DNA of 64,000 bases from Chryseobacterium joostei. Its GTDB lineage: Bacteria > Bacteroidota > Bacteroidia > Flavobacteriales > Weeksellaceae. The stretch covers positions 4,030,001 through 4,094,000 of the forward strand of contig NZ_CP033926.1 in NCBI RefSeq assembly GCF_003815775.1, given 5' to 3'. Position numbers and translations under genes: made by a program. Under the pieces are notes generated by a model. That model did not search any database. It was given only the letters and a program-made list of their open reading frames with translations, and was not told the origin of the DNA. Numbering within the stretch: position 1 is the first letter of the stretch; every line of letters begins with the position of its first letter. This document shows, in pieces, positions 20,823 to 42,237 of this stretch.

Positions 20823-20830
20823 TATCTTTG
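20823..20830 (+). promoter_or_regulatory. -7 promoter element TATCTTTG
   Basis: A perfect match to TAnnTTTG, 12 bases before the ATG of the tiny ORF at 20843. With the terminator at 21001 it defines a complete short transcription unit. Confidence 0.65.
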
Positions 20831-20842
20831 CGCCAGAAAATT

Positions 20843-20971
20843 ATGACAATACAAAGAGCACATATCAATGCAGAACTATGCGAAAGCCCATCAAAACTGG
20901 GATTATTCGGATATGATTTGATGATATGGAATGAGGCGAAATGTGCTGACTTTGGAAATTATTTACTGTAA
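20843..20971 (+). CDS. Tiny ORF, 42 aa, own promoter and terminator
   Basis: The frame encodes 42 residues beginning MTIQRAHINAELCESP and ending ADFGNYLL, with no similarity I recognise. Support for translation comes from position: a consensus promoter just upstream and a strong terminator 30 bases downstream. It could instead be the body of a small non-coding RNA. It opens the RNA island together with a similar unit at 21359. Confidence 0.4.
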   Translation: MTIQRAHINAELCESPSKLGLFGYDLMIWNEAKCADFGNYLL

Positions 20972-21000
20972 ACTCGTAAAAAATTAATCAAAATACTACA

Positions 21001-21038
21001 AAAACGCCTCGAAAAATCGAGGCGTTTTTTGTTTTTTA
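21001..21038 (+). terminator. Strong intrinsic terminator
   Basis: The stem ACGCCTCG / CGAGGCGT has a 6-base loop and is followed by two T runs. It closes the short unit that starts at 20823. Confidence 0.85.
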
Positions 21039-21118
21039 GGTCAGAAATTATTTAGAATGAAAAAAAATAACCATAAACATGAAAATTTTTCAATTAACAA
21101 TGAAACCTTAATACGATA

Positions 21119-21214
21119 AAATAGAGTGATAAGCAACCCGGTGAGAGACAGTCATTTAGGTATTTAAGATATCCGCAAAATATTGCGGACAGAAACTGTT
21201 TACTCTAAAATCCA
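21119..21214 (+). ncRNA. Structured RNA element, unknown family
   Basis: Paired ends TAGAGT / ACTCTA enclose a second helix ACAGT / ACTGT with a long 5'-side bulge (GATAAGCAACCCGGTGAGAG), and inside it a hairpin TCCGCAA / TTGCGGA. The asymmetric bulge between two helices resembles the layout of the Y-RNA-like elements further downstream, but the bulge sequence differs. It lies upstream of the second tiny ORF, so a leader or riboswitch is an alternative. Confidence 0.45.
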
Positions 21215-21280
21215 GATTTAACTAACTGATTTTCAGTAGTTTAATTTGAAAATTTATTTGTGAGTTTCGAAAATTCATAT

Positions 21281-21288
21281 TTACTTTG
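21281..21288 (+). promoter_or_regulatory. -7-like element TTACTTTG
   Basis: Same TTACTTTGCA sequence as in the Ro60 promoter (38468), but without the inverted-repeat box 28 bases upstream. It probably drives the unit containing the tiny ORF at 21359. Confidence 0.45.
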
Positions 21289-21358
21289 CAACCGAAAATT
21301 GAAAGCAACAGGTTTTCAGGATTCAACAAAAATAATTTAAAGACAAAACAAAAATAAA

Positions 21359-21484
21359 ATGAAACAATTGCCTAACATATTTAATCAATATTCAGAACTA
21401 TTCGGACAAGAGCCGGCAGGAGCTGTGTGTGTTTATGATAGCAGAATTGTGGATAAAAGGTGCTTATATACGTGGGTCAGTTAA
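21359..21484 (+). CDS. Tiny ORF, 41 aa
   Basis: Encodes 41 residues beginning MKQLPNIFNQYSELFG and ending RCLYTWVS. Not recognised. As with the ORF at 20843, it is preceded by a promoter-like element and followed by a strong hairpin terminator, and the tRNA array begins directly after that terminator. It may be a leader peptide, a toxin-sized peptide or a spurious frame. Confidence 0.38.
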   Translation: MKQLPNIFNQYSELFGQEPAGAVCVYDSRIVDKRCLYTWVS

Positions 21485-21508
21485 TGATCTTTCACGTCAA
21501 AATATACC

Positions 21509-21540
21509 AAGCGCCTCCCAAAAAGAGGCGCTTTTTTTAT
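21509..21540 (+). terminator. Strong hairpin with T run directly before the tRNA array
   Basis: The stem AAGCGCCTC / GAGGCGCTT is followed by a T run that ends exactly where the first tRNA begins (21541). It may be a terminator for the tiny ORF or a processing/attenuation hairpin for the array. Confidence 0.75.
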
Positions 21541-21614
21541 GGTTCCGTAGCTCAACCGGATAGAGCATGGGTTTTCTAAACCCAGGGTTAGAGGTTCGAA
21601 TCCTCTCGGAATCA
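21541..21614 (+). tRNA. tRNA-Arg (anticodon UCU)
   Basis: Full cloverleaf: acceptor GGTTCCG/CGGAATC, U8-A9, D arm GCTC...GAGC with GG in the loop, and an anticodon stem TGGGT/ACCCA. The loop TTTCTAA has TCT at 21575-21577, the T arm is AGAGG-TTCGAAT-CCTCT and the discriminator is A. No CCA is encoded. The most canonical member of the array. Confidence 0.87.
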
Positions 21615-21624
21615 CAGCATATAA

Positions 21625-21696
21625 GGTCTATTGAGGTAATGGCTAACCTGCCCGACTGTCTCTTGGGCACTGCGAGTTCGATTCTCGCATAGACCG
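21625..21696 (+). tRNA. tRNA-Asp-like (anticodon GUC)
   Basis: Acceptor GGTCTAT/ATAGACC is perfect; the D arm is AGGT...ACCT. The anticodon stem CCCGA/TTGGG has a G-U pair, and loop CTGTCTC holds GTC at 21658-21660 with U33. The T arm is GCGAG-TTCGATT-CTCGC. Discriminator G matches the known Asp identity base. The body is unlike ordinary bacterial tRNA-Asp, so it looks like a divergent extra copy. Confidence 0.7.
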
Positions 21697-21700
21697 CAAA

Positions 21701-21756
21701 GATTCATGGAAATTTCAGCTCCGACTGTCTCTCGGAAAAGAATGTTGAAGTGGATC
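21701..21756 (+). ncRNA. Hairpin displaying a stand-alone Asp anticodon arm
   Basis: The ends GATTCA / TGGATC pair, then ATTTCA pairs with TGAAG after a 5-base bulge. The tip is TCCGA-CTGTCTC-TCGGA: a 5-bp stem with exactly the 7-base anticodon loop of the neighbouring tRNA-Asp (21656-21662). There is no T arm or acceptor CCA, so it is not a tRNA. An anticodon-arm mimic or decoy is an inference. Confidence 0.5.
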
Positions 21757-21763
21757 TGCAAAA

Positions 21764-21835
21764 CTGGAAAGATAACGGTGGTTGTTTACCCGTCTTGGAC
21801 GCGGGAGGTCGCAAGTTCGAATCTTGCTTTCCAGA
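21764..21835 (+). tRNA. tRNA-Pro-like (anticodon UGG)
   Basis: Acceptor CTGGAAA/TTTCCAG includes C1-G72 with discriminator A, the bacterial Pro identity set. The anticodon stem CCCGT/GCGGG encloses loop CTTGGAC with TGG at 21796-21798. The T arm GCAAG-TTCGAAT-CTTGC is perfect. The D arm is reduced to 3 bp (AAC/GTT) and U8 is missing, so folding may depend on other contacts. No CCA is encoded. Confidence 0.65.
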
Positions 21836-21873
21836 CAAAATACAAATGAAGTTAATTGTTTCAGGAGAAAAGT

Positions 21874-21934
21874 AAAAGTTTGTCAAGAGCAGAAGATCTT
21901 TACGCCAAAACACGAAAATACAGACAAGCTTTTT
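21874..21934 (+). ncRNA. GCAGAAG hairpin RNA, copy R1
   Basis: The ends AAAAGTTTGTC / GACAAGCTTTTT pair, with a G-U wobble. The stem is followed at once by the shared core AAGAGCAGAAGATCTTTA, itself able to fold as AAGA/TCTT. One of four copies in the array; the outer stem sequence differs between copies while pairing is kept. Confidence 0.6.
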
Positions 21935-21993
21935 CTTATCTCAATAAAGAACAATTAGAATTAAAAAATATCATTTATAAAATTTTAGGTAAA

Positions 21994-22054
21994 AATAAAG
22001 TTTGTCAAGCGCAGAAGGTCTTATATCAAACAAAAAATTAGGACAGGCTTTATT
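21994..22054 (+). ncRNA. GCAGAAG hairpin RNA, copy R2
   Basis: The ends AATAAAGTTTGTC / GACAGGCTTTATT form a 13-bp stem with two G-U pairs. The core is AAGCGCAGAAGGTCTTA: two changes relative to R1 (A to C and A to G) keep the small AAG/CTT helix. It lies directly before tRNA-Cys. Confidence 0.6.
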
Positions 22055-22079
22055 TTTTTAATGAAAACTAAATAAAAAT

Positions 22080-22161
22080 GATGGTTCGCCGAAGTGGAAG
22101 AGTCGGGGCGGTCTGCAAAACCGTTGCTTAAGCTGAGTGGGTTTGAATCCCATAGCCATCT
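22080..22161 (+). tRNA. tRNA-Cys (anticodon GCA) on a class II, Tyr-like body
   Basis: Acceptor GATGGTT/AGCCATC; the anticodon stem GCGGT/ACCGT holds loop CTGCAAA with GCA at 22115-22117, and the T arm is GTGGG-TTTGAAT-CCCAT. Discriminator U is the Cys identity base. The long variable arm (TGCTTAAGCTGA) and the D-arm region CGCCGAAG...GAGTCGGGGC are shared with the tRNA-Tyr at 22360. Cys tRNAs are normally class I, so this appears derived from the Tyr tRNA by a GUA to GCA anticodon change. Confidence 0.75.
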
Positions 22162-22168
22162 CTATGAT

Positions 22169-22208
22169 AGAGCTTAGATGTTAATAAACTTTAGAAAAAC
22201 ATCGCTCT
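22169..22208 (+). ncRNA. Spacer hairpin with 5' bulge
   Basis: AGAGC and GATGTT on the left pair with AACATC and GCTCT on the right, 11 bp with a TTA bulge only on the left. It separates tRNA-Cys from hairpin R3. Probably a transcribed structured spacer. Confidence 0.45.
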
Positions 22209-22230
22209 TATGAAGATTATCCTTTATTAG

Positions 22231-22296
22231 AAAAGAAAATGTCTGTCAAGAGCAGAAGATCTTTAGTTAAACATTTAAAGACAGACCTTTTCTTTT
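22231..22296 (+). ncRNA. GCAGAAG hairpin RNA, copy R3
   Basis: Longest stem of the family: 17 positions (22231-22247 with 22280-22296), 16 of them paired. The core AAGAGCAGAAGATCTTTA is identical to R1. The stem sequence shares only the inner TGTC with R1, so conservation lies in structure plus core. Confidence 0.65.
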
Positions 22297-22309
22297 TAAA
22301 ACAGGAAAA

Positions 22310-22351
22310 GAGCATTAGGGCAGATTGTGTATTAATCATTGCTAATTGCTC
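22310..22351 (+). ncRNA. Spacer hairpin before tRNA-Tyr
   Basis: GAGCATTAG pairs with CTAATTGCTC (9 bp, one bulged base), with a small inner helix GATT/AATC. No shared sequence with the R family. Structured spacer of unknown role. Confidence 0.4.
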
Positions 22352-22359
22352 ATAAATAA

Positions 22360-22446
22360 GGAAGTACGCCGAAGTTGGAGAGTCGGGGCAGACTGTAAAT
22401 CTGTTGCTTTATTGCTGAGTAGGTTCGAATCCTACTACTTCCACCA
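22360..22446 (+). tRNA. tRNA-Tyr (anticodon GUA)
   Basis: Acceptor GGAAGTA/TACTTCC, anticodon loop CTGTAAA with GTA at 22395-22397, a long variable arm as in bacterial Tyr tRNAs, and the T arm GTAGG-TTCGAAT-CCTAC. Discriminator A and an encoded CCA (22444-22446) complete it. Position 8 is C rather than U. The D-arm region is nearly the same as in the tRNA-Cys at 22080. Confidence 0.85.
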
Positions 22447-22447
22447 A

Positions 22448-22521
22448 ACCGCTGATAATGTAATGGCAGCATGCAGGAAATGTACTCTTGTTGTTTAGGT
22501 TCGATTCCTAGTCAGTTGGTT
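22448..22521 (+). tRNA. Degenerate tRNA-like gene, apparent anticodon UGU
   Basis: The T arm TTAGG-TTCGATT-CCTAG and anticodon stem CAGGA/TCTTG are clear. The acceptor ACCGCTGA/TCAGTTGGT has a bulged T. Anticodon loop AATGTAC places TGT (Thr) at 34-36 but has A instead of the universal U33. It may be a decaying or non-decoding tRNA mimic; Thr identity is uncertain. Confidence 0.45.
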
Positions 22522-22528
22522 TTTAATA

Positions 22529-22600
22529 GCTCTATTCGTCTAACGGCTAGGACGCCTGCCTTTCGAGCAGAAAATAAGGGTTCGATTCCCTTATAGAGTA
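22529..22600 (+). tRNA. tRNA-Glu (anticodon UUC)
   Basis: Acceptor GCTCTAT/ATAGAGT, a D arm GTC...GAC typical of Glu/Asp tRNAs, and an anticodon stem CCTGC/GCAGA with one C-A mismatch. Loop CTTTCGA has TTC at 22562-22564, and the T arm AAGGG-TTCGATT-CCCTT is perfect. Base 37 is G where A is usual. Discriminator A. Confidence 0.8.
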
Positions 22601-22606
22601 CAGGAT

Positions 22607-22686
22607 GTGAATGAACTGGTCAATATTGAATTGATTATAACCATGAAAGTTCAAATTTGAAAATACATTGGCCAGTCACCATTCAC
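22607..22686 (+). ncRNA. Two-helix hairpin, Y-like layout
   Basis: GTGAATG pairs with CATTCAC and CTGGTCAAT with ATTGGCCAG, separated by an asymmetric internal loop (AA opposite TCAC). The inner part can form TTGAA/TTCAA. Sixteen pairs in all. No T-loop sequence. It sits between tRNA-Glu and hairpin R4. Confidence 0.5.
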
Positions 22687-22701
22687 CGAAAAATAGGAAA
22701 A

Positions 22702-22775
22702 GAGAAAGGTTTGTCGAGCGCAGAAGATCTTTACAAACAAAAACAGGCATAGTTTATAGTAGACAGAGCTTTCTC
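22702..22775 (+). ncRNA. GCAGAAG hairpin RNA, copy R4
   Basis: GAGAAAGGTTTGTC pairs with GACAGAGCTTTCTC with one mismatch and one wobble. The core is GAGCGCAGAAGATCTTTA, close to the other three copies. The loop after the core is longer than in R1-R3. Confidence 0.6.
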
Positions 22776-22795
22776 AAACCTAATTTATGATAAAT

Positions 22796-22833
22796 GATGA
22801 GTACAAGGTGATTTTAATATTATCAATTACTCA
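22796..22833 (+). ncRNA. Spacer hairpin before tRNA-Leu
   Basis: ATGAGT/ACTCAT outer pairs with an inner TGAT/ATCA helix. AT-rich; weaker than the other array hairpins. Confidence 0.3.
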
Positions 22834-22841
22834 TAAAAACT

Positions 22842-22917
22842 GCGGGAATGGTGGAATGGTATACACTCTTGATTTAGGATCAAGCTTTTGGGGGTTCGAA
22901 TCCCTCTTCCCGTACCA
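22842..22917 (+). tRNA. tRNA-Leu (anticodon UAG) with a short variable loop
   Basis: Acceptor GCGGGAA/TTCCCGT, anticodon stem CTTGA/TCAAG, loop TTTAGGA with TAG at 22875-22877, T arm GGGGG-TTCGAAT-CCCTC, discriminator A and encoded CCA. Bacterial Leu tRNAs normally have a long variable arm; here only about five bases separate the anticodon and T stems, so this is a class I form. Confidence 0.78.
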
Positions 22918-22935
22918 AAGTATCAATTATAATAG

Positions 22936-23008
22936 GGAAGAGTGGTGTAGAAGGTCTGCACGCTAGTCTGAAAAACTAGAGGTACAGGTTCAATTCCTGT
23001 CTGTTCCG
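22936..23008 (+). tRNA. tRNA-Phe-like (anticodon GAA)
   Basis: Acceptor GGAAGAG/CTGTTCC contains one G-G mismatch. The D arm is GTGT/GCAC, the anticodon stem CTAGT/ACTAG holds loop CTGAAAA with GAA at 22970-22972, and the T arm is ACAGG-TTCAATT-CCTGT. The discriminator is G, whereas Phe tRNAs normally have A, so charging is doubtful. Confidence 0.62.
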
Positions 23009-23032
23009 CAAAAAAAAATAAAAGTAAAGACG

Positions 23033-23097: not shown

Positions 23098-23583
23098 ATG
23101 GAAACGCAACAACAAACATGGCAGAATATGAATGGGAAAATTTTCCAACACTCTATCACACAGCTGGTAGAAGAAGCCATCATTCGCGAACAGGCAAACG
23201 GACACCGTCTGAAAGTATGTGTGGGATCAGACTCTCACGTATACGGAGAAGCCATTAATTATGCTACGGCAGTAGTGTTTATTCGTGAGGGAAAAGGAGC
23301 GTTTACCTTTATTAGAAAAGAAAGAGAAATACAGAGTATCAGTATCAAGGAGCGAATGCTGAATGAAGTCAACAAATCCGTTGAAATTGCATACGCCATC
23401 TGCTCTGTGTTGGACAATTATGGTGTGGAAATGGAGGTACACGCAGACATTAATACAGACCCAGACTTTAAGTCCAATGCAGCATTAGGAGATGCCATGG
23501 GATACATTCTGGGAATGGGATATGTGTTTAAGGCAAAACCCTTTGCTTTCGCCAGTTCCAACTGTGCTGATATGATGGTTTAA
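23098..23583 (+). CDS. RNase H-like YkuK-family protein
   Basis: 161-aa protein of the YkuK/DUF458 family with a predicted RNase H-like nuclease fold. The first strand carries VCVGSDSHVYG, with the Asp expected in the active site, and later acidic positions occur at EVHADINTDPDF and ADMM. It is the first protein gene after the tRNA array and probably shares its transcript, so a role in tRNA or hybrid processing is plausible but inferred. No close gene follows until 23655. Confidence 0.82.
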   Translation: METQQQTWQNMNGKIFQHSITQLVEEAIIREQANGHRLKVCVGSDSHVYGEAINYATAVVFIREGKGAFTFIRKEREIQSISIKERMLNEVNKSVEIAYAICSVLDNYGVEMEVHADINTDPDFKSNAALGDAMGYILGMGYVFKAKPFAFASSNCADMMV

Positions 23584-23654: not shown

Positions 23655-24440
23655 ATGACTCATAATAGAATAGCCGTTATCGGTTTACACGAACATGAAT
23701 ATGAATATATAAGACAACATTACGAAGGCCTCATGATCTGGCACCAATCCATTCCTAAGATAAAAATAATTGACGGAATATTATATGTTGAAAAAGCTCA
23801 GGGAGTTGGAATGCTTCCGGTTGATAAGGTTATTTATCACGGAATTTTTGAAGATGATCTGGATTTTATTTCAGGATTAGCCCTGTGGAATGGTCCATGT
23901 TTTCCAAACGCCTACGGAATGCTTGAATGCAGATTGAAAATTCCTTGTCTGATTAAGGCAATGAAGTATTCAAAATTTAATTCCCAAAGAGGATTTATCT
24001 CTGCAGATACCTATATAAATACGAATTCTGAGTTGGTAGCCAAATGGGGAAACTGGCATTGTGGAGAAAACAAACATAAGTTTACAGGAAGTTGGGAAAG
24101 TACAGAAAACAGTGTCTTGGAACCTTATTTTGAAGGCGAAGCCGTAAGAATTTTAAACATTGGCGAAAAATCCTGGCAGATTAAACTTGAAGGAGAAACA
24201 TGGTTAAAATCCATTCATCCCGATAATGCCCAGTTTACAGAAATTGATACAGAACTTTTACAGGATACATTAATGTTGAAAGATAAAATTGGAATGGATG
24301 TCATCGCTAATGATTACATCGTTCAAAAAGATGGGACCAAGCATTTACTGGAGATTAATCATATCCCCAATATCACAAGATTTGAAGAAGTAAGATTGCA
24401 TTTTCTTGAAACTGTTGTGGATTGGATTCATGAAGACTAG
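23655..24440 (+). CDS. ATP-grasp-like protein
   Basis: 261-aa cytoplasmic protein. The C terminus (IANDYIVQKDGTKHLLEINHIPNIT) has the Glu-x-Asn metal/ATP signature of ATP-grasp enzymes, preceded by EGEAVRIL and an upstream Lys-rich segment (CLIKAMKYSKFNSQRG). This resembles the divergent CDC123/R2K-type ATP-grasp families, which have been noted in RNA-repair gene neighbourhoods; the specific family is not certain. Likely reaction: ATP-dependent amide or related bond formation. It precedes the cREC and RNA ligase genes. Confidence 0.68.
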   Translation: MTHNRIAVIGLHEHEYEYIRQHYEGLMIWHQSIPKIKIIDGILYVEKAQGVGMLPVDKVIYHGIFEDDLDFISGLALWNGPCFPNAYGMLECRLKIPCLIKAMKYSKFNSQRGFISADTYINTNSELVAKWGNWHCGENKHKFTGSWESTENSVLEPYFEGEAVRILNIGEKSWQIKLEGETWLKSIHPDNAQFTEIDTELLQDTLMLKDKIGMDVIANDYIVQKDGTKHLLEINHIPNITRFEEVRLHFLETVVDWIHED

Positions 24441-24469: not shown

Positions 24470-24838
24470 ATGAAAATGACAAAAAGATTATTATTTCTGG
24501 ATGATATACGATATCCGATTGAGGCTTATCATTATACCAAACAGGATATTTTCCTGAGAGAAGATTGGCATATAGTTCGGAACTACGAGCAGTTTGTCAA
24601 TAGAATTTTGGAAAAAGGACTTCCTGAAATGATCTCTTTTGACCACGATCTTGCCGATATGCATTATCTGAAACAGGATTCTCAGGAATTTATTGAAAAA
24701 ACAGGCTACGATTGTGCAAAATGGCTGGTAGAATATTGTATGGATAACTATTTAGGACTACCGAAATTCTATTGCCACTCCATGAATCCCGTAGGGAAGA
24801 AGAATATTGAGAGCCTTTTAAAAAACTTTAAAAACTAA
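24470..24838 (+). CDS. cREC protein (cyclic-phosphate processing receiver domain)
   Basis: 122-aa single-domain protein with the cREC pattern: LLFLDDIRYP at the N terminus, SFDHDLADMH in the middle, a helix YDCAKWLVEYC, and FYCHSMNPVGKKNI near the end. This receiver-derived family is predicted in the literature to process cyclic phosphate ends of RNA and is repeatedly found beside RNA-repair ligases. The next gene, the RNA ligase, starts 4 bases after its stop, strongly suggesting joint action. The start may be Met1 or Met3. Confidence 0.82.
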   Translation: MKMTKRLLFLDDIRYPIEAYHYTKQDIFLREDWHIVRNYEQFVNRILEKGLPEMISFDHDLADMHYLKQDSQEFIEKTGYDCAKWLVEYCMDNYLGLPKFYCHSMNPVGKKNIESLLKNFKN

Positions 24839-24842: not shown

Positions 24843-25856
24843 ATGATTTTCAAAACATATAACTCTATAGAAAACGCTTACCAGGCCCGCATGATCGATC
24901 AGATCAGGTTGCAGGGTTTTGGGGATGAGGTTTTCATCGTGCAGGAAAAAGTTCATGGAGCTAATTTCTCTTTCTTTACCGATGGAAAGGAAATTAAGAT
25001 CGCAAAAAGGACAGCTTTTATTGAAAAAGATGAAAAATTCTATAATGCACATCAGATGTTGGAACGCTACAAAAAAAATGTAATTGAGGTGTTTCAAAAA
25101 GTGAAAACAATGCACCCGAATGTGGAAACTGTAGTCATCTACGGTGAGTTATTCGGTGGCGGTTACAACCACAAAGAAGTAGAACCCGTAAAAGGTGCCG
25201 TGAGAGTACAAAAAGGTATTGAATATGCACCTTACAATGAATTCTATGCCTTCGATATTAAGTTGAATGGGGTTACTTATTTGGATACAGATATTGTTAA
25301 TCAAATTTTCGAGAAAACCGGATTTTTCTATGCTAAAACCTTATTTCAAGGGACTTTAGAAGAGGCTTTGAGGTTTCCGAATGTTTTCAATTCTAAAATT
25401 CCAGCTTGGTTGGGATTACCGGAATTGAATAATATGTGTGAAGGAACCATTATAAAGACTTTAAAAACCAAATATTTTGGGAATGGTGCAAGAGTCATTC
25501 TAAAAAATAAGAATGAAAAGTGGATCGAAAAATCTAAAATGGTTAAAAAGCAAGGGAAAACAATTCAGAAGCAAATTGTTTTTGGAGAAACAGCCCAAAA
25601 TATTTGGGAAGAAATCCAAAGGTATGTGACTGCAAATCGTTTGAATAATGTTGTGAGCAAAATTGGTGAATTCGAACCCAAAATGATGGGGAAGATCATT
25701 GGTCTTTTTGCACAGGATATTTTAGAGGATTTTGAAAAGGATTTTCCATCAGTTTTCACTACAATAGAAAAAGAAGAACAGAAAAGGATCAACAAAAAGT
25801 TGAATACTTTGGTTATAGATTTTATAAAAGAAGAGTTAATGACTCTTAAAGTTTAG
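24843..25856 (+). CDS. T4 Rnl2-type RNA ligase
   Basis: ATP-dependent RNA ligase that joins 3'-OH and 5'-phosphate ends in duplex-like contexts. Nucleotidyltransferase motif I is EKVHGAN with Lys36 as the adenylated residue, followed by AKRTAF, YGELFGGG (motif III), EGTIIKT (motif IV) and RVILKNKNEKW (motif V). The C-terminal helical domain (NRLNNVVSKIGEFEPKMMGK) matches that of T4 Rnl2, and the length (337 aa) equals the phage enzyme's. Together with cREC and exonucleases it suggests sealing of cleaved tRNA or other RNA. A terminator overlaps its stop. Confidence 0.93.
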   Translation: MIFKTYNSIENAYQARMIDQIRLQGFGDEVFIVQEKVHGANFSFFTDGKEIKIAKRTAFIEKDEKFYNAHQMLERYKKNVIEVFQKVKTMHPNVETVVIYGELFGGGYNHKEVEPVKGAVRVQKGIEYAPYNEFYAFDIKLNGVTYLDTDIVNQIFEKTGFFYAKTLFQGTLEEALRFPNVFNSKIPAWLGLPELNNMCEGTIIKTLKTKYFGNGARVILKNKNEKWIEKSKMVKKQGKTIQKQIVFGETAQNIWEEIQRYVTANRLNNVVSKIGEFEPKMMGKIIGLFAQDILEDFEKDFPSVFTTIEKEEQKRINKKLNTLVIDFIKEELMTLKV

Positions 25857-25949: not shown

Positions 25950-26894
25950 ATGTTACAAGCAGAAATAAAAAGTCTTTTAAAAGAAGACATCAGTATATTA
26001 ATAAAAGTTCCCAATTCAGGAAAGCATTATGTATGTGATTGTGGTGAAGCAAGCTTATTGACAGTGAAGGAGGCACAGTCTGTGTCAGCAATATTCATCA
26101 GCCATACACATATTGATCACTTTGCGAACTTTGACGGGATTTTCAGACATCAAATTGGAAGTGGAGAAAAAGTGGTCATCTGTGGACCGAAGAATATTCA
26201 TCAACAAGTTGAAGCAAGGTTAAAATCCTACACATGGAATTTAATAGATGAAAATGCCATTGAATATGAAATCAGGGAAATTGTTTCCAAGGAAGAAATT
26301 AATGTTTATACACTCCATCCACCTTACTGGAATACAGAATTCATAAAGACTCAGAATTTTCTTTTTGAAGATGAATGTGTGAATGTTGATTTTGCCATTC
26401 TTGATCATAAAACAGATTCCATTGCTTATCTGTTTAAAGAAAGAGATACCATTACTTTTCATGAAGAAGCTTCCGGCTTCAGAAAAGGAAAATGGATCAG
26501 CGAGTTAAAAATAGCTTTCGAAAACAATGATCCGGATCAGCAAATTGAGATAGAAGATACAATATACAAGGCGTCGGAATTATTCCATCTACTCACAAAA
26601 AATGAGGGATATAAGTTGGGCGTAATTATGGATCATGCTGTAGATGAAAGAAACTATGAAAAGATGAGAACTGTTTTTACAGAAGCTGATAAGGTATACA
26701 TCGAAACATTTTATAAAGATCTCGATCAGGAATTTGCCAAACTCAATTATCACAGTTTTGCATCTGCATCAGGAAAAATCATGAATGAATGCAAGGTGAA
26801 AGAAGCCATCCCGATCCACTTTTCAAGAAGATATACGGAAAGTGATCAACAGGAAATTGAAACTGCTTTTTATAAAGCATTTCGAGAAAGTTAA
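25950..26894 (+). CDS. RNase Z/ELAC-like MBL-fold nuclease
   Basis: 314-aa MBL-fold protein with the zinc motif FISHTHIDHF near residue 53 and a C-terminal IPIHFSRRYTES containing the last histidine, as in RNase Z-like enzymes. RNase Z cuts the 3' trailer of pre-tRNAs. The array tRNAs mostly lack an encoded CCA, so a dedicated 3'-processing nuclease would fit, but that link is inferred. The family also includes other hydrolases. Confidence 0.75.
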   Translation: MLQAEIKSLLKEDISILIKVPNSGKHYVCDCGEASLLTVKEAQSVSAIFISHTHIDHFANFDGIFRHQIGSGEKVVICGPKNIHQQVEARLKSYTWNLIDENAIEYEIREIVSKEEINVYTLHPPYWNTEFIKTQNFLFEDECVNVDFAILDHKTDSIAYLFKERDTITFHEEASGFRKGKWISELKIAFENNDPDQQIEIEDTIYKASELFHLLTKNEGYKLGVIMDHAVDERNYEKMRTVFTEADKVYIETFYKDLDQEFAKLNYHSFASASGKIMNECKVKEAIPIHFSRRYTESDQQEIETAFYKAFRES

Positions 26895-36267: not shown

Positions 36268-36270
36268 ATT

Positions 36271-37614
36271 ATGGAAGATATGCTTACTTACAATTATTCC
36301 AGATCATCTGCACTGGTAAAGAAAGATGCTCTGGAAGAACTGTTTCTCTCCAAATATAGCGAGATACAGAAAAATACCGATGTTCCCTGCTTTTTCTGGG
36401 GGAACGTAGGACAACCTTTTATTTTGGCCCGTTGCCTAATTACACTTTCCAATATTGTAAAGTCAAGCTTTAATCTGTCACCATTTCAGATGGCATTGCT
36501 CAAAGATCCTATTGTGACCGCCGGAAATGAGAGGTTGCGATTTGAAGGCTTTTCTCATTGCGCAGGAGTGTATGCACGAGTGGATGTTCTTCCGGATGGA
36601 TTGGATGGGGAGTTTTTGGAAAACGGAACTACAAATGTAGATTTTAATCAACCCATGATAACCGCCCTTGGAAGTATTCGCCCCAATGAAAAAATTATGC
36701 TTTCTGTTGGTGACAAAGAATTCGGGTTATATAAAGAAGAAAAAAAAGTAGTGGAAAGAAAGGTTCCATTGCCTACAAAATGGATTAAGGGCTTAGGAAC
36801 AGTACAGATATACCTGTCTGAATCACAAAAGCAACATAGTTTTAATAAGATACAAACTCAGCAGCTATTCAGAGGAATGCCGAAAGGGACAGTAAAGTCA
36901 GACTATTATCTTATCGTAAGAGGAAATAAACCGATGTTTTCTCCTGTAAAATCTGCTGATGCTGTCTGCATTGGAGGACTTCACAGGTTAAGACTATTGG
37001 AACCATTGCTTCCTTATATAGATCATATGCAGGTATTTCCGCATCCTAATATGCAGTCTACCACCTGGCAGCTTTATATGGGAAATATAAAATTTAGTTT
37101 TTCCCTGTCAAGAGAGAGCTGGAGAGGGTTTTCAGGAGAAGGGGCTGTTTTGGATAGTCTTACAACAGAAGTATCAGATGAATGGATTGATGCTCTGGAC
37201 AAATATGCCTACGCTAACCAATCATTCAATGCAATGGTTCTAGCACTAGAGGAAAACATTAGCCTGAATAAAGCAGATAATATTACAGGAAGATTGGCTT
37301 CAATGGGATTGTTGGGATATGATCTTGACGATAATGAGTTCTTCTACCGCAGATTGCCCTTTAAGCTAAGCCGTATCTTAGAATTAAATCCACGTATGAA
37401 GAATGCTGAAAAACTGATTGAAGATGGAAAAGTTGAGATTTTAAGCAATCATAAAGAAAGAACAGAAGCCAGGGTACAAGGCACAGGAGTACACCATACC
37501 GTAATTATTGAAGACGAAAAGGAGCGTTGTACCTGCGAATGGTTCAGTAAATATCAAGGCGAAAGAGGTCCTTGTAAACACGTGCTTGCAGTGAAGAAAC
37601 TTGTAAATAGTTAA
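36271..37614 (+). CDS. SWIM zinc-finger protein
   Basis: 447-aa protein with a C-terminal SWIM zinc finger (CTCEWFSKYQGERGPCKH, the CxCx(n)CxH pattern). SWIM domains bind nucleic acid or protein. The first 390 residues are of unknown fold. Third gene of the DUF6493-DUF6493-SWIM operon, which ends about 0.9 kb before the Ro60 gene. A role in target recognition is inferred. Confidence 0.82.
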   Translation: MEDMLTYNYSRSSALVKKDALEELFLSKYSEIQKNTDVPCFFWGNVGQPFILARCLITLSNIVKSSFNLSPFQMALLKDPIVTAGNERLRFEGFSHCAGVYARVDVLPDGLDGEFLENGTTNVDFNQPMITALGSIRPNEKIMLSVGDKEFGLYKEEKKVVERKVPLPTKWIKGLGTVQIYLSESQKQHSFNKIQTQQLFRGMPKGTVKSDYYLIVRGNKPMFSPVKSADAVCIGGLHRLRLLEPLLPYIDHMQVFPHPNMQSTTWQLYMGNIKFSFSLSRESWRGFSGEGAVLDSLTTEVSDEWIDALDKYAYANQSFNAMVLALEENISLNKADNITGRLASMGLLGYDLDDNEFFYRRLPFKLSRILELNPRMKNAEKLIEDGKVEILSNHKERTEARVQGTGVHHTVIIEDEKERCTCEWFSKYQGERGPCKHVLAVKKLVNS

Positions 37615-38436: not shown

Positions 38437-38439
38437 AAC

Positions 38440-38475
38440 TACGCAAAATGATTGCGTAATACTGTTTTTACTTTG
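38440..38475 (+). promoter_or_regulatory. Ro60 promoter with inverted-repeat box
   Basis: A perfect inverted repeat TACGCAA-AATGA-TTGCGTA (38440-38458) followed by a -7-like element TTACTTTG at 38468-38475, 28 bases from box start. The same arrangement occurs at 9256, 40114 and 40327. This suggests that one regulator controls the Ro60 gene and the Y RNAs. Confidence 0.75.
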
Positions 38476-38536: not shown

Positions 38537-40054
38537 ATGAAATTTAATTTTTTGAAAAAAGAAAACAAAGTAGTCTTGAACTATGAGGGAGCAAAAGCAT
38601 ATGTGATGACCCCTGCAGAAGAATTGTATAGTGCTGTGGTTACAACAGGGCTTTCTAATATTACTTATGAAAAAGGGAATGAGAGATTGGAGAGAATACA
38701 GTCTCTGATTAAGAAAAATGATCCCGAATTTGTAGCAAAACTAGCTGTGTATGCTAGAAAAGATATGTACTTGCGTTCCATTCCATTGGTTTTGGCTACA
38801 GAGCTGGCAAGAGAAGCTTCAGGCTCAGACCTGGTAAGCAAAACAGTGGATGGAGTTGTTCAAAGAGCTGATGAAATCACAGAACTGCTGGCTTATTACC
38901 AGCTTGCCAATGAAAGAACAGAAACAAAAAAACTGAACAGGCTATCTAAGCAAATTCAGAAAGGATTGATAAAGTCATTCAATAAGTTTGACGAATACCA
39001 GTTTGCAAAATATAACAGGAAAGGAGAAGTAACATTGAAAGATGCCTTATTCCTGGTACACCCAAAAGCTAAGAATGAGAACCAGCAAACCATTTTTAAT
39101 AAAATTGCAGGTGATGTGTTAGAAGTTCCTTACACGTGGGAAGTTGAGCTTTCTGTGCTGGGACAGAAAAAATATACTGATCAAGAAGAAAGAGAACAGG
39201 CTTTCAAAATCAAATGGGAAGAATTGATCTTCAGCAATAAACTAGGATACATGGCAACCCTGCGAAACCTAAGAAATATTCTGGAGGCAGAAGTATCAGC
39301 AGATGCAATGAATAAAATTTGTCGTTATCTGGCTGATGAAAAAGCGGTTATTCATTCAAAGCAGTTGCCGTTCAGATTTCTGGCAGCATACAGGGAATTG
39401 AAAACCATTGATTCACCTTATTTGTCTTCTGTACTGGAAGCATTGGAAAATGCAGTTGTGGTAAGTGCTCAGAATATCAAAGGCTTTGGCTTCAATACTT
39501 CTGTGGTTATTGCAGCTGATGTCTCAGGTTCAATGCAGAAAAAGGTTTCTCCAAAAAGTAAAATCTTGCTGTATGACATTGGTTTGTTGATGTCAATGAT
39601 CTTACAGTCACAATGCAAAAATGTAGTAACAGGGATGTTCGGTGATCGTTGGTTACGGGTTCCAATGCCTAAAAATGGAATCCTAAGAAATGTAGATGCA
39701 TTCTATAAGCGTGAAGGTGAAGTGGGGTATTCTACCAACGGTTATCTGGTCATCGAAGATTTGATTAAAAGACGGGAAAAAGTGGAAAAAGTAATGCTGT
39801 TCACAGATACCCAAATGTGGGATAGCTCTGGAAACAAACATTCATTTGAAGATTCCTGGAATAGATATAAGGCCATAGCTCCTGATGCAAAACTGTATAT
39901 TTTTGACTTGGCTGGCTATGGAAGACAGCCGATTGATATCAAAAGAAATGATGTATACCTTATTGCAGGTTGGTCAGATAAAATCTTCGATGTATTGAAT
40001 GCTTTGGAAGATCAGAAATCTGCAATAGAAATGATTGAAAAAGTAGTGCTGTAA
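38537..40054 (+). CDS. TROVE-domain protein, Ro60 orthologue
   Basis: 505-aa ring-forming RNA-binding protein. Residues 1-310 form the helical TROVE (HEAT-like) ring with KNDPEFVAKLAVYARKDMYLRS and VLATELAREA. A vWA domain follows with the MIDAS motif DVSGSM near residue 328 and a later FTDTQMWD. Orthologues bind Y RNAs and misfolded RNAs and can direct exoribonucleases to structured RNA. The gene lies immediately upstream of nine Y-RNA-like elements and shares their promoter box. Confidence 0.94.
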   Translation: MKFNFLKKENKVVLNYEGAKAYVMTPAEELYSAVVTTGLSNITYEKGNERLERIQSLIKKNDPEFVAKLAVYARKDMYLRSIPLVLATELAREASGSDLVSKTVDGVVQRADEITELLAYYQLANERTETKKLNRLSKQIQKGLIKSFNKFDEYQFAKYNRKGEVTLKDALFLVHPKAKNENQQTIFNKIAGDVLEVPYTWEVELSVLGQKKYTDQEEREQAFKIKWEELIFSNKLGYMATLRNLRNILEAEVSADAMNKICRYLADEKAVIHSKQLPFRFLAAYRELKTIDSPYLSSVLEALENAVVVSAQNIKGFGFNTSVVIAADVSGSMQKKVSPKSKILLYDIGLLMSMILQSQCKNVVTGMFGDRWLRVPMPKNGILRNVDAFYKREGEVGYSTNGYLVIEDLIKRREKVEKVMLFTDTQMWDSSGNKHSFEDSWNRYKAIAPDAKLYIFDLAGYGRQPIDIKRNDVYLIAGWSDKIFDVLNALEDQKSAIEMIEKVVL

Positions 40055-40149: not shown

Positions 40150-40163
40150 CAGTATAAATATTA

Positions 40164-40219
40164 CTGGTGCCGTTAGAAAGACATACTTCGATTCCAAAAC
40201 AGACAGAGTCTTTCACCAG
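40164..40219 (+). ncRNA. Y-RNA-like element Y1 (no tRNA module)
   Basis: Outer helix CTGGT/ACCAG, left-side bulge GCCGTTA, inner helix GAAAGAC/GTCTTTC, loop beginning ATACTTCG. The bulge and the ACTTCG after the inner helix are shared with the other elements. A stem of paired ends with a conserved bulge next to a Ro60 gene is the Y-RNA layout. This short version has no T or D arm. Confidence 0.7.
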
Positions 40220-40233
40220 ATTGCCCGGTAGCT

Positions 40234-40311
40234 AACCAATGCCGTTGATAAGAGTTTCATCGTCAACTTTTAATTGAATATCATTTACTCTTATCATTTT
40301 ATTGCTTGGTT
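40234..40311 (+). ncRNA. Y-RNA-like element Y2 (no tRNA module)
   Basis: Outer helix AACCAA/TTGGTT, left bulge TGCCGTT opposite ATTTTATTGC, inner helix GATAAGAG/CTCTTATC, loop beginning TTTCATCG. The helices are unrelated in sequence to Y1 but keep the pairing, while the bulge is conserved. Confidence 0.72.
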
Positions 40312-40326
40312 TTTAATAAAAATAAC

Positions 40327-40362
40327 TACGTAAAAATAATGCGCAGTAAGTATATAAATTGG
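40327..40362 (+). promoter_or_regulatory. Y-RNA promoter 2 with inverted-repeat box
   Basis: Box TACGTAA-AAATA-ATGCGCA (40327-40345) and a weaker -7 element TAAATTGG at 40355-40362; again 28 bases apart. It probably drives Y3 onward through the SUKH gene to the terminator at 42237. Confidence 0.6.
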
Positions 40363-40397
40363 TAACCATAAAACTAATAACTATAAATAACCATAAA

Positions 40398-40527
40398 AAA
40401 CAAGTGTCGTAAAATAGAGTTACTTCTTAAGGGACGGTAATATAGGTTCGAATCCTGTTCTGCAACAGCAGATAGTAGAAATGGTAATACCCCGTATTGA
40501 TCTCTGTTTGATTTAATTACCTTGTTT
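40398..40527 (+). ncRNA. Y-RNA-like element Y3 with permuted tRNA module
   Basis: Outer helix AAACAAG/CTTGTTT, bulge TGTCGTA opposite GATTTAATTAC, inner helix AAATAGAG/CTCTGTTT. Inside, in this order: an anticodon-like stem strand ACGG, T arm ATAGG-TTCGAAT-CCTGT, closed acceptor-like hairpin TCTGC-AACA-GCAGA, UA, D arm GTA...TAC with GG, and CCGT closing the anticodon-like stem. This is a tRNA opened at the anticodon and closed at the acceptor end, as described for bacterial YrlA-type Y RNAs. Confidence 0.78.
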
Positions 40528-40533
40528 AAATCA

Positions 40534-40676
40534 TATCAAGTGTCGTTTTGGAATCATACTTCGATTACACGTCATCAGGTCGCAGGTTCAATTCCTGTCA
40601 TTCTTGTTGTAAACGGGATGTAGCTCAGATGGTAGAGCAGATGGAAAAGAAAGATTCCTCCATTTTTACCTTGATA
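40534..40676 (+). ncRNA. Y-RNA-like element Y4 with permuted tRNA module
   Basis: Outer helix TATCAAG/CTTGATA, bulge TGTCGTTTT opposite TCCATTTTTAC, inner helix GGAATC/GATTCC, then ATACTTCG. The module reads CATC, T arm GCAGG-TTCAATT-CCTGT, an acceptor-like 6-bp helix (CATTCT with GGGATG) closed by a 10-base loop, UA, a canonical D arm GCTC-AGATGGTA-GAGC, and GATG. Strongly tRNA-like and closely related to Y6. Confidence 0.82.
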
Positions 40677-40681
40677 ATTTA

Positions 40682-40794
40682 TAAAAGAGTGCCGTAGAAA
40701 AGGCTTACTTCGGTAAATCTTATGATATTGGTTCAACTCCAAAACAGATCATGAAAATGATCTGGCGAGTCTTTTCAATCTTTTGCCTCTTTTA
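40682..40794 (+). ncRNA. Y-RNA-like element Y5 with T arm and GAAA hairpin
   Basis: Outer helix TAAAAGAG/CTCTTTTA, bulge TGCCGTA, inner helix GAAAAGGCT/AGTCTTTTC (9 bp), then TACTTCGG. It has a T arm TTGG-TTCAACT-CCAA followed by CAGATCAT-GAAA-ATGATCTG, but no D arm. It ends 15 bases before the SUKH start codon. Related to Y7. Confidence 0.75.
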
Positions 40795-40809
40795 AAAAAA
40801 ATAATAACA

Positions 40810-41649
40810 ATGAATATACCAAGTAACCTGACTGAATTCCTATACTGGGTCAAGGAACGTACAGAAAAACTTTGGTCTGTGGATGATGAAAATTGTCCTA
40901 AAGGATTTTATGGTGCCAAATGGCAGGGGCTTTCTAAAGAACAGATTGATCAAGTTGAAAAAAAATATAACATCAGGTTTATCCCTGAGCATAAAGAATT
41001 TTTAAAAATTCTTCATACGATTGACAAAAAAGAAATTTTTGAATATGAGGATGATGGAGAACTGATTACAGAAGAACGTAATTTCTTTTATAATTGGCTT
41101 GCTGATGAAAAAGAAGTTTTAGAAATAATAAAAAGTTCATATAGTTGGATGAAGTACGATGCGGATGAGGATAGCCAGGTTTGGCTTAGTTCATGGGGGA
41201 TAAAGCCTGCATCTTTGGAAAAGAGAATAGAAATTTTTGAAGAATGGTTTTCTCATGTTCCAGCTCTTTTACCTTTGACAGGACTCCGATATATTGTAAG
41301 TGATGAAAACCTTAAATGGAAGCCTGTTATTTCTTTAGGATCTTCTGATATTATTGTTATGGGTTGGGATTTAAGAACTTATTTATTAAATGAATTAAGT
41401 AACTATCTTGATATTCATATTGATGTATTTGATGAAGAAGACCAAATGTTTTACCCTGAACTTATTGATGAGGTAAAGAATATATTTGATGAAAATTTTA
41501 AGTATGATCAAACCAAAGATATTCCTTATCTGAAAGAAAGGATTCTCTATTTGTCTTCTGGATGGAGTAGTTTTGGTTTAAGCTATTATCCTGAAAATGC
41601 AGGAATTCATCCTATTGTTAAAACTGAGATGTCTGAAGAAGAAAAATAA
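40810..41649 (+). CDS. SUKH-family (SMI1/KNR4) protein inside the Y-RNA array
   Basis: 279-aa protein, starting at ATG 40810; an upstream in-frame ATG at 40783 lies inside Y5 and is unlikely. The SUKH signature is visible as GLSKEQIDQVEKKYNIRFIPEHKEFLKIL. SUKH proteins often neutralise toxins, including nucleases, or act as binding scaffolds. Its position between Y5 and Y6 means it is probably translated from the same transcript as the Y RNAs. No partner toxin gene is visible nearby. Confidence 0.82.
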   Translation: MNIPSNLTEFLYWVKERTEKLWSVDDENCPKGFYGAKWQGLSKEQIDQVEKKYNIRFIPEHKEFLKILHTIDKKEIFEYEDDGELITEERNFFYNWLADEKEVLEIIKSSYSWMKYDADEDSQVWLSSWGIKPASLEKRIEIFEEWFSHVPALLPLTGLRYIVSDENLKWKPVISLGSSDIIVMGWDLRTYLLNELSNYLDIHIDVFDEEDQMFYPELIDEVKNIFDENFKYDQTKDIPYLKERILYLSSGWSSFGLSYYPENAGIHPIVKTEMSEEEK

Positions 41650-41654
41650 ACTAT

Positions 41655-41799
41655 AATCAAGTGTCGTCTTAGAATCATACTTCGAGATTGAATAAACATT
41701 GGGTCGCAGGTTCGAATCCTGCCTTTTCCCTCGAAAAGGAGAGGTAGCTCAGCAGGTAGAGCAAATGCACAGAAGATTCTGAAAAATATTACCTTGATT
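41655..41799 (+). ncRNA. Y-RNA-like element Y6 with permuted tRNA module
   Basis: Outer helix AATCAAG/CTTGATT, bulge TGTCGTCTT, inner helix AGAATC/GATTCT, then ATACTTCG. Module: CATT, T arm GCAGG-TTCGAAT-CCTGC, a 7-bp acceptor-like helix (CTTTTCC with GGAGAGG) closed by an 8-base loop, UA, D arm GCTC-AGCAGGTA-GAGC, AATG. A duplicate of Y4 by sequence, with compensating changes in the helices. Confidence 0.83.
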
Positions 41800-41804
41800 T
41801 GTAT

Positions 41805-41904
41805 AAAGAGTGCCGTAAAAAAGACTTACTTCGGTTTAATTTGGTTCGACTCCAGAAAGTCATGAAAATGATTTTGTAAAAGTCTTTTTGAACTTAGCCT
41901 CTTT
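41805..41904 (+). ncRNA. Y-RNA-like element Y7 with T arm and GAAA hairpin
   Basis: Outer helix AAAGAG/CTCTTT, bulge TGCCGTA, inner helix AAAAAGACT/AGTCTTTTT, then TACTTCGG. It has a T arm TTGG-TTCGACT-CCAG and hairpin AAAGTCAT-GAAA-ATGATTTT. Same design as Y5; base changes in the hairpin keep pairing. Confidence 0.75.
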
Positions 41905-41916
41905 TTTATTAAAAAA

Positions 41917-42069
41917 AAAATAAGTGCCGTAGAATAGTGTTACTTCGATCATCACGACGGGGACACGGGTTCGAGTCCTGTCTCTTCCACAACAAAAAGC
42001 ACAATTATTATAGGAAGAGTAGCTCAGTTGGTAGAGCACGACATCACTTTTTGCTTGTTGCCTTGTTTT
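41917..42069 (+). ncRNA. Y-RNA-like element Y8 with permuted tRNA module
   Basis: Outer helix AAAATAAG/CTTGTTTT, bulge TGCCGTA opposite GCTTGTTGC, inner helix GAATAGTG/CACTTTTT with one mismatch, then TTACTTCG. T arm ACGGG-TTCGAGT-CCTGT, a perfect 7-bp acceptor-like helix CTCTTCC/GGAAGAG closed by a 24-base loop, UA, and a canonical D arm GCTC-AGTTGGTA-GAGC. The anticodon-like stem is short (about 2 bp). Confidence 0.8.
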
Positions 42070-42072
42070 ATT

Positions 42073-42204
42073 ATAAGTGTCGTTAGAAAAAGCTTCATCG
42101 TCACGCAATTTGGGGAGGAATAGCGAAGTCGGTAACTTCGGCAAGGTTATCCGGTTCGACTCCGGCAAGTGTAGCCCCGTGCTTTTTCTTGTTGTTACCT
42201 TTAC
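42073..42204 (+). ncRNA. Y-RNA-like element Y9 with unpermuted mini-tRNA module
   Basis: Bulge TGTCGTTA and inner helix GAAAAAGC/GCTTTTTC as in the others; the outer helix is weak (AAG/CTT plus a bulged extension). Inside, GGGG/CCCC closes a D-like hairpin GAAGT-CGGTA-ACTTC followed by a T arm CCGG-TTCGACT-CCGG. D precedes T here, unlike Y3, Y4, Y6 and Y8, and there is no anticodon arm. Confidence 0.65.
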
Positions 42205-42205
42205 A

Positions 42206-42237
42206 AAAAAGCCGATATATTATTTATCGGCTTTTTT
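42206..42237 (+). terminator. Terminator ending the Y-RNA array
   Basis: GCCGATA/TATCGGC within flanking A and T tracts, followed by seven T. It also overlaps the end of the minus-strand HTH gene, so it may work in both directions. Confidence 0.85.

Follow-up and report, generated by a model that had tools for sequence, protein, structure and literature searches.

What would tell a bacterium to switch on a reserve of unusual tRNA genes together with a set of RNA-repair enzymes? The question is raised by a 64,000-nucleotide chromosomal stretch (hereafter the window) of the 4.89-Mb genome of Chryseobacterium joostei, in which an array of divergent tRNA genes is followed by genes for cREC, a T4 Rnl2-family RNA ligase, nucleases, Ro60 and Y-RNA-like elements. 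We found that the array stands behind two tandem short open reading frames (ORFs), here called leader 1 and leader 2, each of which spells out nearly all 20 amino acids shortly before an intrinsic terminator. We give a probability of roughly two in three to the reading that this is an inducible tRNA-emergency island placed behind two tandem ribosome-mediated attenuators, the pair of near-pangram leader peptides being the most likely sensor. With slightly less confidence, we favor the fuller version in which the leaders would form a universal alarm for tRNA shortage, the loss of any aminoacyl-tRNA releasing nuclease-resistant backup tRNAs and the machinery for repair and clearing. What the sequences show in support is conservation of the leaders, of the terminators and of the potential for pairing between them, along with near-pangram peptides, tRNA discriminators and gene families. 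An earlier note on this DNA placed the start of the island at 20823, exactly where the −7 box of promoter 1 begins, and mentioned neither leader.

The leaders were sought in relatives of the locus. Under a fixed rule, both were present in 18 of 21 loci and one in two more (L053 and L060, in which leader 1 is visible as an ORF). Among the best 80 of 137 loci from a genome scan, at least one leader was found in 74 of the 77 that have YkuK, and the three misses (L074, L135 and L138) had at most 5.4 kb of sequence upstream of Rnl2. Pattern searches in a pool of 86 loci recovered 79 copies of leader 1 and 77 of leader 2; the latter pattern overlooked those of L071 and L058. A detector of near-pangram ORFs lying before a terminator, run over 3.47 Mb (both strands counted), returned 131 hits to known leaders and 15 others: leader 2 of L071 and of L058, two leaders each in L147 and L149, one in L150, and eight unrelated or overlapping frames. 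Leader 1 is 42 codons long in all 74 loci used for tree simulation. In a test set beforehand, Chryseobacterium loci that bear cREC and lack Rnl2 had both leaders in 3/3 cases, with 19–20 distinct amino acids and with 15, 10 and 3 called tRNAs behind them. Outside the genus, the pair was found at none of six cREC loci (L255, L257–L260 and L263, with only 3 kb upstream in L257), and the ORF-plus-terminator hits seen there (one in L258; two in L259, with 17 and 14 distinct amino acids and about 5 kb apart) were judged unrelated. L258 also shows that pangram content alone is not specific: a 57-residue ORF before a terminator (L258:1676-1849, reverse complement), resembling by eye a double-glycine bacteriocin precursor, has all 20 amino acids.

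The amino-acid content of the leaders is richer than expected. Unique leader 1 peptides (n=57) hold on average 19.53 distinct amino acids, with all 20 in 33 of them, and unique leader 2 peptides (n=72) hold 18.93; taken together, the two leaders comprise all 20 in 76 of 77 genomes. Random 42-mers of island composition have a mean of 16.5 (P of 20: 0.007) and real 42-residue windows a mean of 16.15 (n=5746). In the sensing zone of leader 1, i.e. its first 27 codons (48 unique), the mean is 18.48 and ten zones contain all 20, compared to a mean of 14.11 and about one complete set in 200,000 for random 27-mers. We also permuted residues within alignment columns, which keeps the columns and breaks the combinations. 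Content then fell from 19.53 to 19.13 for the full leader 1 (gain +0.40; 0/2000 shuffles reached the observed value), from 18.48 to 17.67 for its sensing zone (+0.82; 0/2000) and from 17.24 to 16.82 for the sensing zone of leader 2 (+0.42, z 4.6; computed on the 50 zones that are 30 codons long, of 67 unique zones in all). Control windows from the same loci reached at most +0.18 and z 4.08 at 42 residues (n=106, seven proteins), and at most +0.33, z 3.64 and a mean content of 17.19 at 27 residues (n=158), so that both sensing zones exceed all 158 controls in column-shuffle gain. Ten divergent leaders were further tested singly: five gave P<0.05, and Fisher combination of all ten gave 2 × 10−5 if they are independent; the L147 pair had been selected for holding 18 or more distinct residues, and the combined P without it is also 2 × 10−5. 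As an individual case, L131 no longer has the proline normally present in SPS and carries one at another place. Judged from these comparisons, leader sequences drift while the amino-acid set is kept, with zone content beyond that of controls. As part of the universal-alarm reading, it appears somewhat probable that selection acts on the set of codons present rather than on the peptide sequence. An argument from cysteine, missing from none of 129 unique leaders, was dropped because a Cys codon of leader 2 overlaps the conserved antiterminator.

Each leader contains a segment able to pair with the 5' arm of its own terminator. GAGGCG in leader 1 pairs with CGCCTC of T1 at 6/6 positions in 70 of 79 loci and at 5/6 or better in all 79; three loci have the compensatory forms GAAGCG:CGCTTC or GAAGTG:CGCTTC, and registers shifted by 1–3 nt gave no 6/6 case. 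AGGTGCT in leader 2 pairs with AGC[GA]CCT at 7/7 positions in 77 of 78 loci, the segment itself being nearly invariant. Stop codons lie 31 nt (T1) and 24 nt (T2) before the terminators in the window, and similar distances were found in relatives. In ribosome-free transcripts cut before the terminator 3' arm, the antiterminator formed with a probability of 0.83–1.0. Simulating halted ribosomes on nine leaders, we found that the antiterminator stays formed for halts at 15 to 30 upstream codons, and that a ribosome on about codons 27–38 of leader 1, or 32–41 of leader 2 of the window, blocks it. A CCC...GGG hairpin over codons 15–20 of leader 1 (20885-20902) also looks conserved and may be a polymerase pause hairpin; in L131 both of its sides have apparently changed, by eye, to GCCT...AGGC.

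The tRNA array behind T2 comprises eight tRNAs called by ARAGORN in the window, six of them at the Rfam gathering score, and these are 53–76% identical to the tRNA of the same anticodon in the main set (the 38 distinct tRNA sequences of the window's own genome, which is also the reference for anticodon loops). Arrays of 9–16 called tRNAs are found in 65 of 75 loci and cover Glu, Leu, Pro, His, Arg, Phe, Tyr, Asn, Gln, Cys, Lys, Ile, Trp and Asp, with Thr, Met and Ser less frequent. Anticodons are kept in the array tRNAs, and the discriminator base is that of the main set in at least 97% of copies for 13 of 20 isoacceptor types and in at least 90% for 17 (types seen fewer than five times were excluded), e.g. 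Pro A73 with C1:G72 (68/68), Cys U73 (59/59), Trp G73 (49/49), Asp G73 (43/43), Asn G73 (58/59) and His C73 (66/67). Relative to the main set, the neighbors of the anticodon are altered in Pro, Glu, Asp, Ile, Leu, Phe, Gln, Tyr, Cys, His, Arg(TCT) and Ser, and are unchanged in the commonest Lys, Asn, Trp and Met forms. Kept anticodons with altered loop neighbors suggest that the array tRNAs could be working spares that are charged and resist nucleases. The tRNA-Leu(TAG) at 22842-22917 lacks the long variable arm of main tRNA-Leu, and the tRNA-Cys at 22080-22162, 83 nt long, has one. Hairpins of the form GTnnGTCRAGMGCAGAAGRTCTT lie between tRNAs at 21866, 21988, 22229 and 22697; strict copies occur in 59 of 73 arrays and nowhere else in those loci.

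Related arrangements are found around more distant ligases. In L147 and L149, two metagenome-assembled genomes (MAGs) of Flavobacterium type whose Rnl2 is 64–65% identical, two leaders and a tRNA array precede Rnl2. A Band-7 protein comes next in L149, a DEDDh-like ORF was seen by eye in L147 and in a third MAG, L150, and in L147 RtcB is encoded some 4.5 kb upstream of the leaders. L153 and L154 (Rnl2 48% identical) have two leaders before Rnl2 with no tRNA called between, at a locus that holds Rnl1, PNKP, two RlaP and a DUF434 protein; one L153 leader has 19 distinct amino acids in 37 codons. Before its Rnl2, L152 has three tRNAs and two leaders, one holding 19 amino acids in 31 codons and the other 16 in 30. 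The leaders of L058 have 20 and 19 distinct amino acids and the layout is kept. Comparable leaders are separated by no more than about 8 kb from RtcB in L147 and from PNKP, Rnl1 and RlaP in L153, and this proximity, together with the anticodons and discriminators kept by the array tRNAs, supports the proposal of the earlier note that the island deals with RNA damage.

From these elements we infer translation of the leaders, the direction of the switch and the signal behind it, and likewise the roles that the tRNAs and enzymes would play. Nearly all amino acids have a codon in each leader, for the most part 5' of the antiterminator segment. While charged tRNAs are plentiful, the ribosome would cross this segment, the terminator would form and the island would stay off. 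If any tRNA were cut, damaged or uncharged, the ribosome would halt upstream, the antiterminator would form and transcription would proceed into the divergent spare tRNAs and the repair genes. In the response, cREC would clear cyclic phosphates, Rnl2 would seal, and the RNase Z-like protein and the DEDDh nucleases would process or trim, while the Ro60/Y-RNA unit, with its own promoters, would probably handle misfolded or broken RNA.

A number of observations weigh against this account. In the nine simulated leaders a ribosome at the stop codon leaves the antiterminator free again (P 0.71–1.0), and therefore the OFF state would require the polymerase to pass the terminator while the ribosome sits on the blocking codons; in the model it depends on ribosome-polymerase spacing or on following ribosomes. 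The lag in the trp leader is roughly 70–100 nt, which would fit. The simulated permissive zone comprises all 20 amino acids in only two of nine leaders (leader 1 of L101 and of L124; 27 codons), other values being 18 and 19 in L058, 16 and 17 in the window, 17 in L131, 15 in L106 and 12 in L120, and Trp falls outside the zone in several. Regarding content, shuffling columns of the full leader 2 lowered the mean only from 18.93 to 18.83 (+0.10; 131/2000 shuffles reached the observed value), a gain under the control maximum of +0.18; in a tree-based neutral simulation of leader 1, zones at least as rich as those observed arose in 0, 4 or 14 of 150 runs, according to the root assumed; and the other five divergent leaders gave P between 0.06 and 0.62. 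As for the tRNAs, Ala, Gly and Val were never called in the 75 arrays, yet they are encoded in the leaders; Thr calls appear spurious; Phe discriminators vary (A 42, G 20, C 1); and Lys, Asn and Gln have a 1:72 pair unlike that of the main set. Finally, some loci do not conform. L056 has no leader by the fixed rule, L150 yielded one leader and one tRNA, L151 has Rnl2 and no leader or tRNA was found there, and some distant leaders are not near-pangrams. In L147, L149, L152, L153 and L154 the best leader-terminator pairing does not stand out from that of shuffled leaders, the sole marginal case being leader 2 of L153 (49/1000 shuffles). The attenuator reading is strong in Chryseobacterium, as judged by sequence, and weaker in distant relatives.

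Other explanations share part of this evidence. The leaders might be general sensors of translation speed that respond to antibiotics or to any block of elongation, their rich content being a side effect of small unconstrained peptides. The PA5471.1 leader responds in this way to ribosome-targeting drugs and to lack of the CCA-adding enzyme (PMC13041342), and the antiterminator forms also without a ribosome, so that any translation failure would induce; we nevertheless hold this unlikely, since sensing-zone content beats random, real-protein and column-shuffled controls in both leaders. A sensor of amino-acid starvation rather than of tRNA damage would stall in the same manner, and there are hints of leader-peptide attenuation of amino-acid operons in a flavobacterium (PMC9723704). 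The genes behind the leaders, however, are tRNAs and RNA-repair enzymes without biosynthesis, and in deep relatives the leaders lie near RtcB, PNKP, Rnl1, RlaP and DUF434, which makes starvation an improbable signal. Least probable of all, the short ORFs could be untranslated and the peptides accidental within a structured RNA or riboswitch. Differences in leader 1 are distributed over codon positions 1:2:3 as 11237:15007:16007, i.e. not dominated by synonymous changes, the leader 2 tail is kept as RNA despite a frame change in L124 and L126, and the presence of ORFs is partly by construction as the searches demanded an open frame; against this, leader 1 keeps 42 codons in 74/74 loci and its amino-acid set is kept while residues change.

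A further alternative concerns the array rather than its control: its tRNAs could be decoys that soak up anticodon nucleases, or ligands of Ro60, instead of working tRNAs. Their oddity (Leu without and Cys with a long variable arm, and 53–76% identity to the main set) fits this idea, and bacterial Y RNAs mimic tRNA (PMC8394870). Yet the discriminators are kept without exception in Pro, Cys, Trp and Asp and with one exception in His, and anticodons are retained while their neighbors differ, which points to working nuclease-resistant tRNAs; we consider decoys doubtful, if worth keeping in mind.

The island is real and conserved in Chryseobacterium. Among the loci found, Chryseobacterium aurantiacum (Weeksellaceae) is the closest relative with a name, its Rnl2 being 95% identical. 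Rnl2 matches occur in 99 of 296 genomes of the family and in 3 of 33 genera, and Ro60 matches in 124 of 173 genomes of the genus. The linkage that the earlier note proposed to check held up: most of the 20 relatives fetched show a similar order, bpX3-TPR-leaders/tRNA array-YkuK-cREC-Rnl2-phosphoesterase-DEDDh-variable block-glyoxalase-Ro60. Within 10-kb flanks in the 80-locus set, we counted YkuK in 77 loci, DEDDh2 in 77, cREC in 71, the TPR protein in 70, the phosphoesterase in 67 and bpX3 in 65. PIF1 was found in only 11, and the DUF6493 proteins (31 and 39) and Ro60 (31/80) are undercounted, as they can sit outside the flank. The bpMoxR/bpX0-bpX3 'ternary system' genes adjoin the island on its upstream side in the window (13492-20448). 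A viral origin was considered and rejected; the patterns used matched no Rnl2 relative in viral contigs.

The notion of a single 21-kb unit is not borne out. Terminator-like sites at 21003, 21509, 28733 and 42209, separate promoter motifs and variable blocks divide the island (Table 1), and PIF1, DUF6493 and SWIM genes are absent from several relatives, so that a single operon is not supported; the island seems to fall into separable parts, namely an array-repair operon, a variable block with PIF1, DUF6493 and SWIM, and the Ro60/Y-RNA units. The site at 28733-28752 (score 11), after the second DEDDh exonuclease, may end the array-repair operon. What is supported of the earlier note is an RNA-damage island with spare tRNAs, to which we add the probable leader-peptide sensor that was absent from it.

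Table 1. Features of the island, with positions counted from the first base of the window.
Feature	Position	Strand	Evidence or remark
Promoter 1, −7 box TATCTTTG	20823..20830	+	in 24/24 aligned loci
Leader 1, 42 codons, 19/20 amino acids (without V)	20843..20971	+	
Antiterminator segment GAGGCG within leader 1	20933..20938	+	pairs with T1 5' arm
Intrinsic terminator T1	21003..21026	+	
Conserved structured element between both attenuators	21117..21210	+	21 loci aligned
Promoter 2, −7 box TTACTTTG, then conserved 5' UTR	21281..21288	+	24 loci
Leader 2, 41 codons, 19/20 amino acids (without H)	21359..21484	+	
Antiterminator segment AGGTGCT within leader 2	21458..21464	+	pairs with T2 5' arm
Intrinsic terminator T2, immediately 5' of tRNA array	21509..21533	+	
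Spare tRNA array: Arg, Asp, Pro, Cys, Tyr, Glu, Leu, Phe	21541..23009	+	hairpins and degenerate tRNA-like elements interspersed
YkuK-like RNase H-fold protein	23098..23583	+	PF04308, 106 bits
Possible TTL/ATP-grasp-like protein	23655..24440	+	TTL E=0.09, below cut-off
cREC, predicted cyclic-phosphate-processing domain	24470..24838	+	PF20274, 80.6 bits
T4 Rnl2-family RNA ligase	24843..25856	+	TIGR02307, 218.6 bits vs cut-off 197.15
RNase Z-like metallo-beta-lactamase	25950..26894	+	Pfam, 27.8 vs 27
Calcineurin-like phosphoesterase	26930..27493	+	metallophosphoesterase, 27.4 vs cut-off 27
DEDDh exonuclease 1	27584..28129	+	PF00929
DEDDh exonuclease 2	28147..28698	+	PF00929
PIF1-like helicase, variable block	28821..30779	+	
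Two DUF6493/7824/7825 proteins and SWIM protein, variable block	31043..37614	+	
Glyoxalase-fold gene	37720-38208	−	not mentioned in the earlier note
Motif ACTACGCAAAATGATTGCG 5' of Ro60	38438..38456	+	Y RNAs preceded by similar copies (40112, 40325)
Ro60/TROVE protein	38537..40054	+	PF05731, 108.9 bits
Nine Y-RNA-like elements, array	40160..42200	+	
Weakly SUKH-like gene within Y-RNA array	40783..41649	+	20.6 bits, cut-off 25.4

Upstream of the leaders, the TATCTTTG box is presumably a −7 box of the Bacteroidota type. In the alignment between both leaders, 5 of 33 predicted pairs have changed on both sides; the element there has the form GTGATAAGC...GAGAGACAGTCATTTAGGTATTTAAG plus a TCCGC/GCGGA hairpin, and a conserved K/N-rich mini-ORF (21057-21119) precedes it. 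Searches with Pfam/NCBIfam, ARAGORN, Rfam and stem patterns bore out the parts list of the earlier note, save that its 'ATP-grasp-like' and SUKH labels proved weak. The former gene belongs to a minority of relatives (11/80 loci at 45% identity or more). Rnl2 has a K36-V-H-G motif, invariant in seven sequences, which we take to be the nucleotidyl-transfer lysine motif. The RNase Z-like protein scored 213.7 bits against the ribonuclease Z subfamily PRK02126, under the cut-off of 315. RtcB and RtcA were not among the 20 proteins tested with Pfam/NCBIfam between 14634 and 41649. A DUF434+DUF5616 protein with an unassigned neighbor lies at 7875-9254 of the window, and a DUF434+DUF5616 relative stands directly before the leaders in L153.

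The Ro60 protein is above the TROVE cut-off, and scores 23.2 against 27.7 for vWA_Ro60 and only 18.4 bits for NCBIfam Rsr (cut-off 900). Downstream of it, nine TG[CT]CGT 5' motifs occur between 40168 and 42078, eight of which close a strict stem with a one-base bulge, compared to 0.09 expected in shuffles and two hits in the remaining 41 kb of the window. The Y:R pair of this stem covaries (C:G in five, U:A in three; the ninth has U opposite C), and three elements match Rfam YrlA at 31–33 bits, the gathering score being 69. A looser pattern gave two matches (1.26 expected), neither in the array, and the stem-aware search was used instead. Of eight relatives brought into the same orientation, seven have two to ten Y elements downstream of Ro60 (L057 has nine, of which one may be spurious), and none was found in the 856 bp of sequence covered after Ro60 in L052. 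A pair of Y elements is duplicated on either side of the SUKH-like gene (40535-40793 and 41656-41905). The motif ACTACGnAAAAnnATTGCG occurs at 13 places in the genome with up to two mismatches (reversed control: 2) and at six with up to one, four of them in the window: one precedes Ro60, two precede Y-RNA stretches and one is at 9254. Because this motif is common to the upstream regions of Ro60 and the Y RNAs, these probably form a second unit, inherited together with the first and under separate control.

In the literature searched, which covered few subscription journals, we found neither near-pangram leaders nor this island nor attenuation of an RNA-repair operon. The 2016 survey of RNA repair by Burroughs and Aravind bears on this subject, and overlap with its gene neighborhoods is possible. 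If the preferred reading is true, a single short ORF would report on the whole tRNA pool, a new principle of sensing, and the island would be a chromosomal, inducible backup kit for translation. It would explain how unpredictable tRNA-cutting toxins and phage-defence nucleases are detected, why some bacteria have odd extra tRNAs and what partner the Ro60/Y-RNA unit of Bacteroidota has. It would also provide a search rule for similar alarms (a near-pangram ORF before a terminator) and possibly a reporter of any tRNA shortage.

The leaders of trp, his and ilv operons are rich in one or few amino acids; unlike them, the two tandem leaders of the island each span nearly all 20 and precede tRNA genes. 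By analogy, the closest mechanism is the PA5471.1-armZ leader of Pseudomonas, which reacts to ribosome stalling, also in a mutant without the CCA-adding enzyme (PMC13041342). As in PA5471.1 and the trp, his and ilv attenuators, the island has a short ORF, an intrinsic terminator and an alternative antiterminator, and an upstream halt would give readthrough. cREC and RNA ligases are adjacent in RNA-repair systems of phages and cells (PMC7824862), as cREC adjoins the ligase here, and RlaP, PNKP and Rnl1 lie near the leaders in L153; the part of that account considered mentions no leader peptides. The dense tRNA cluster recalls the tRNA array units of Mycobacterium and Firmicutes (PMC5966550). 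Phage-encoded tRNAs have been proposed as nuclease-resistant spares against anticodon nucleases (PMC10264068), and like them the extra tRNAs of the island differ from the host set in anticodon-loop bases, whereas the island is chromosomal, conserved across many species of the genus, apparently inducible and linked to RNA repair. In gene content, the island comes closest to the Salmonella rsr-yrlBA-rtcBA operon, which likewise unites Ro60, Y RNAs and an RNA ligase and is induced by damaged tRNA, tRNA fragments acting via RtcR (PMC7790460). That operon uses RtcB/RtcA and the activator RtcR, whereas the island uses Rnl2 and cREC, carries spare tRNAs and would probably sense damage through ribosome stalling.

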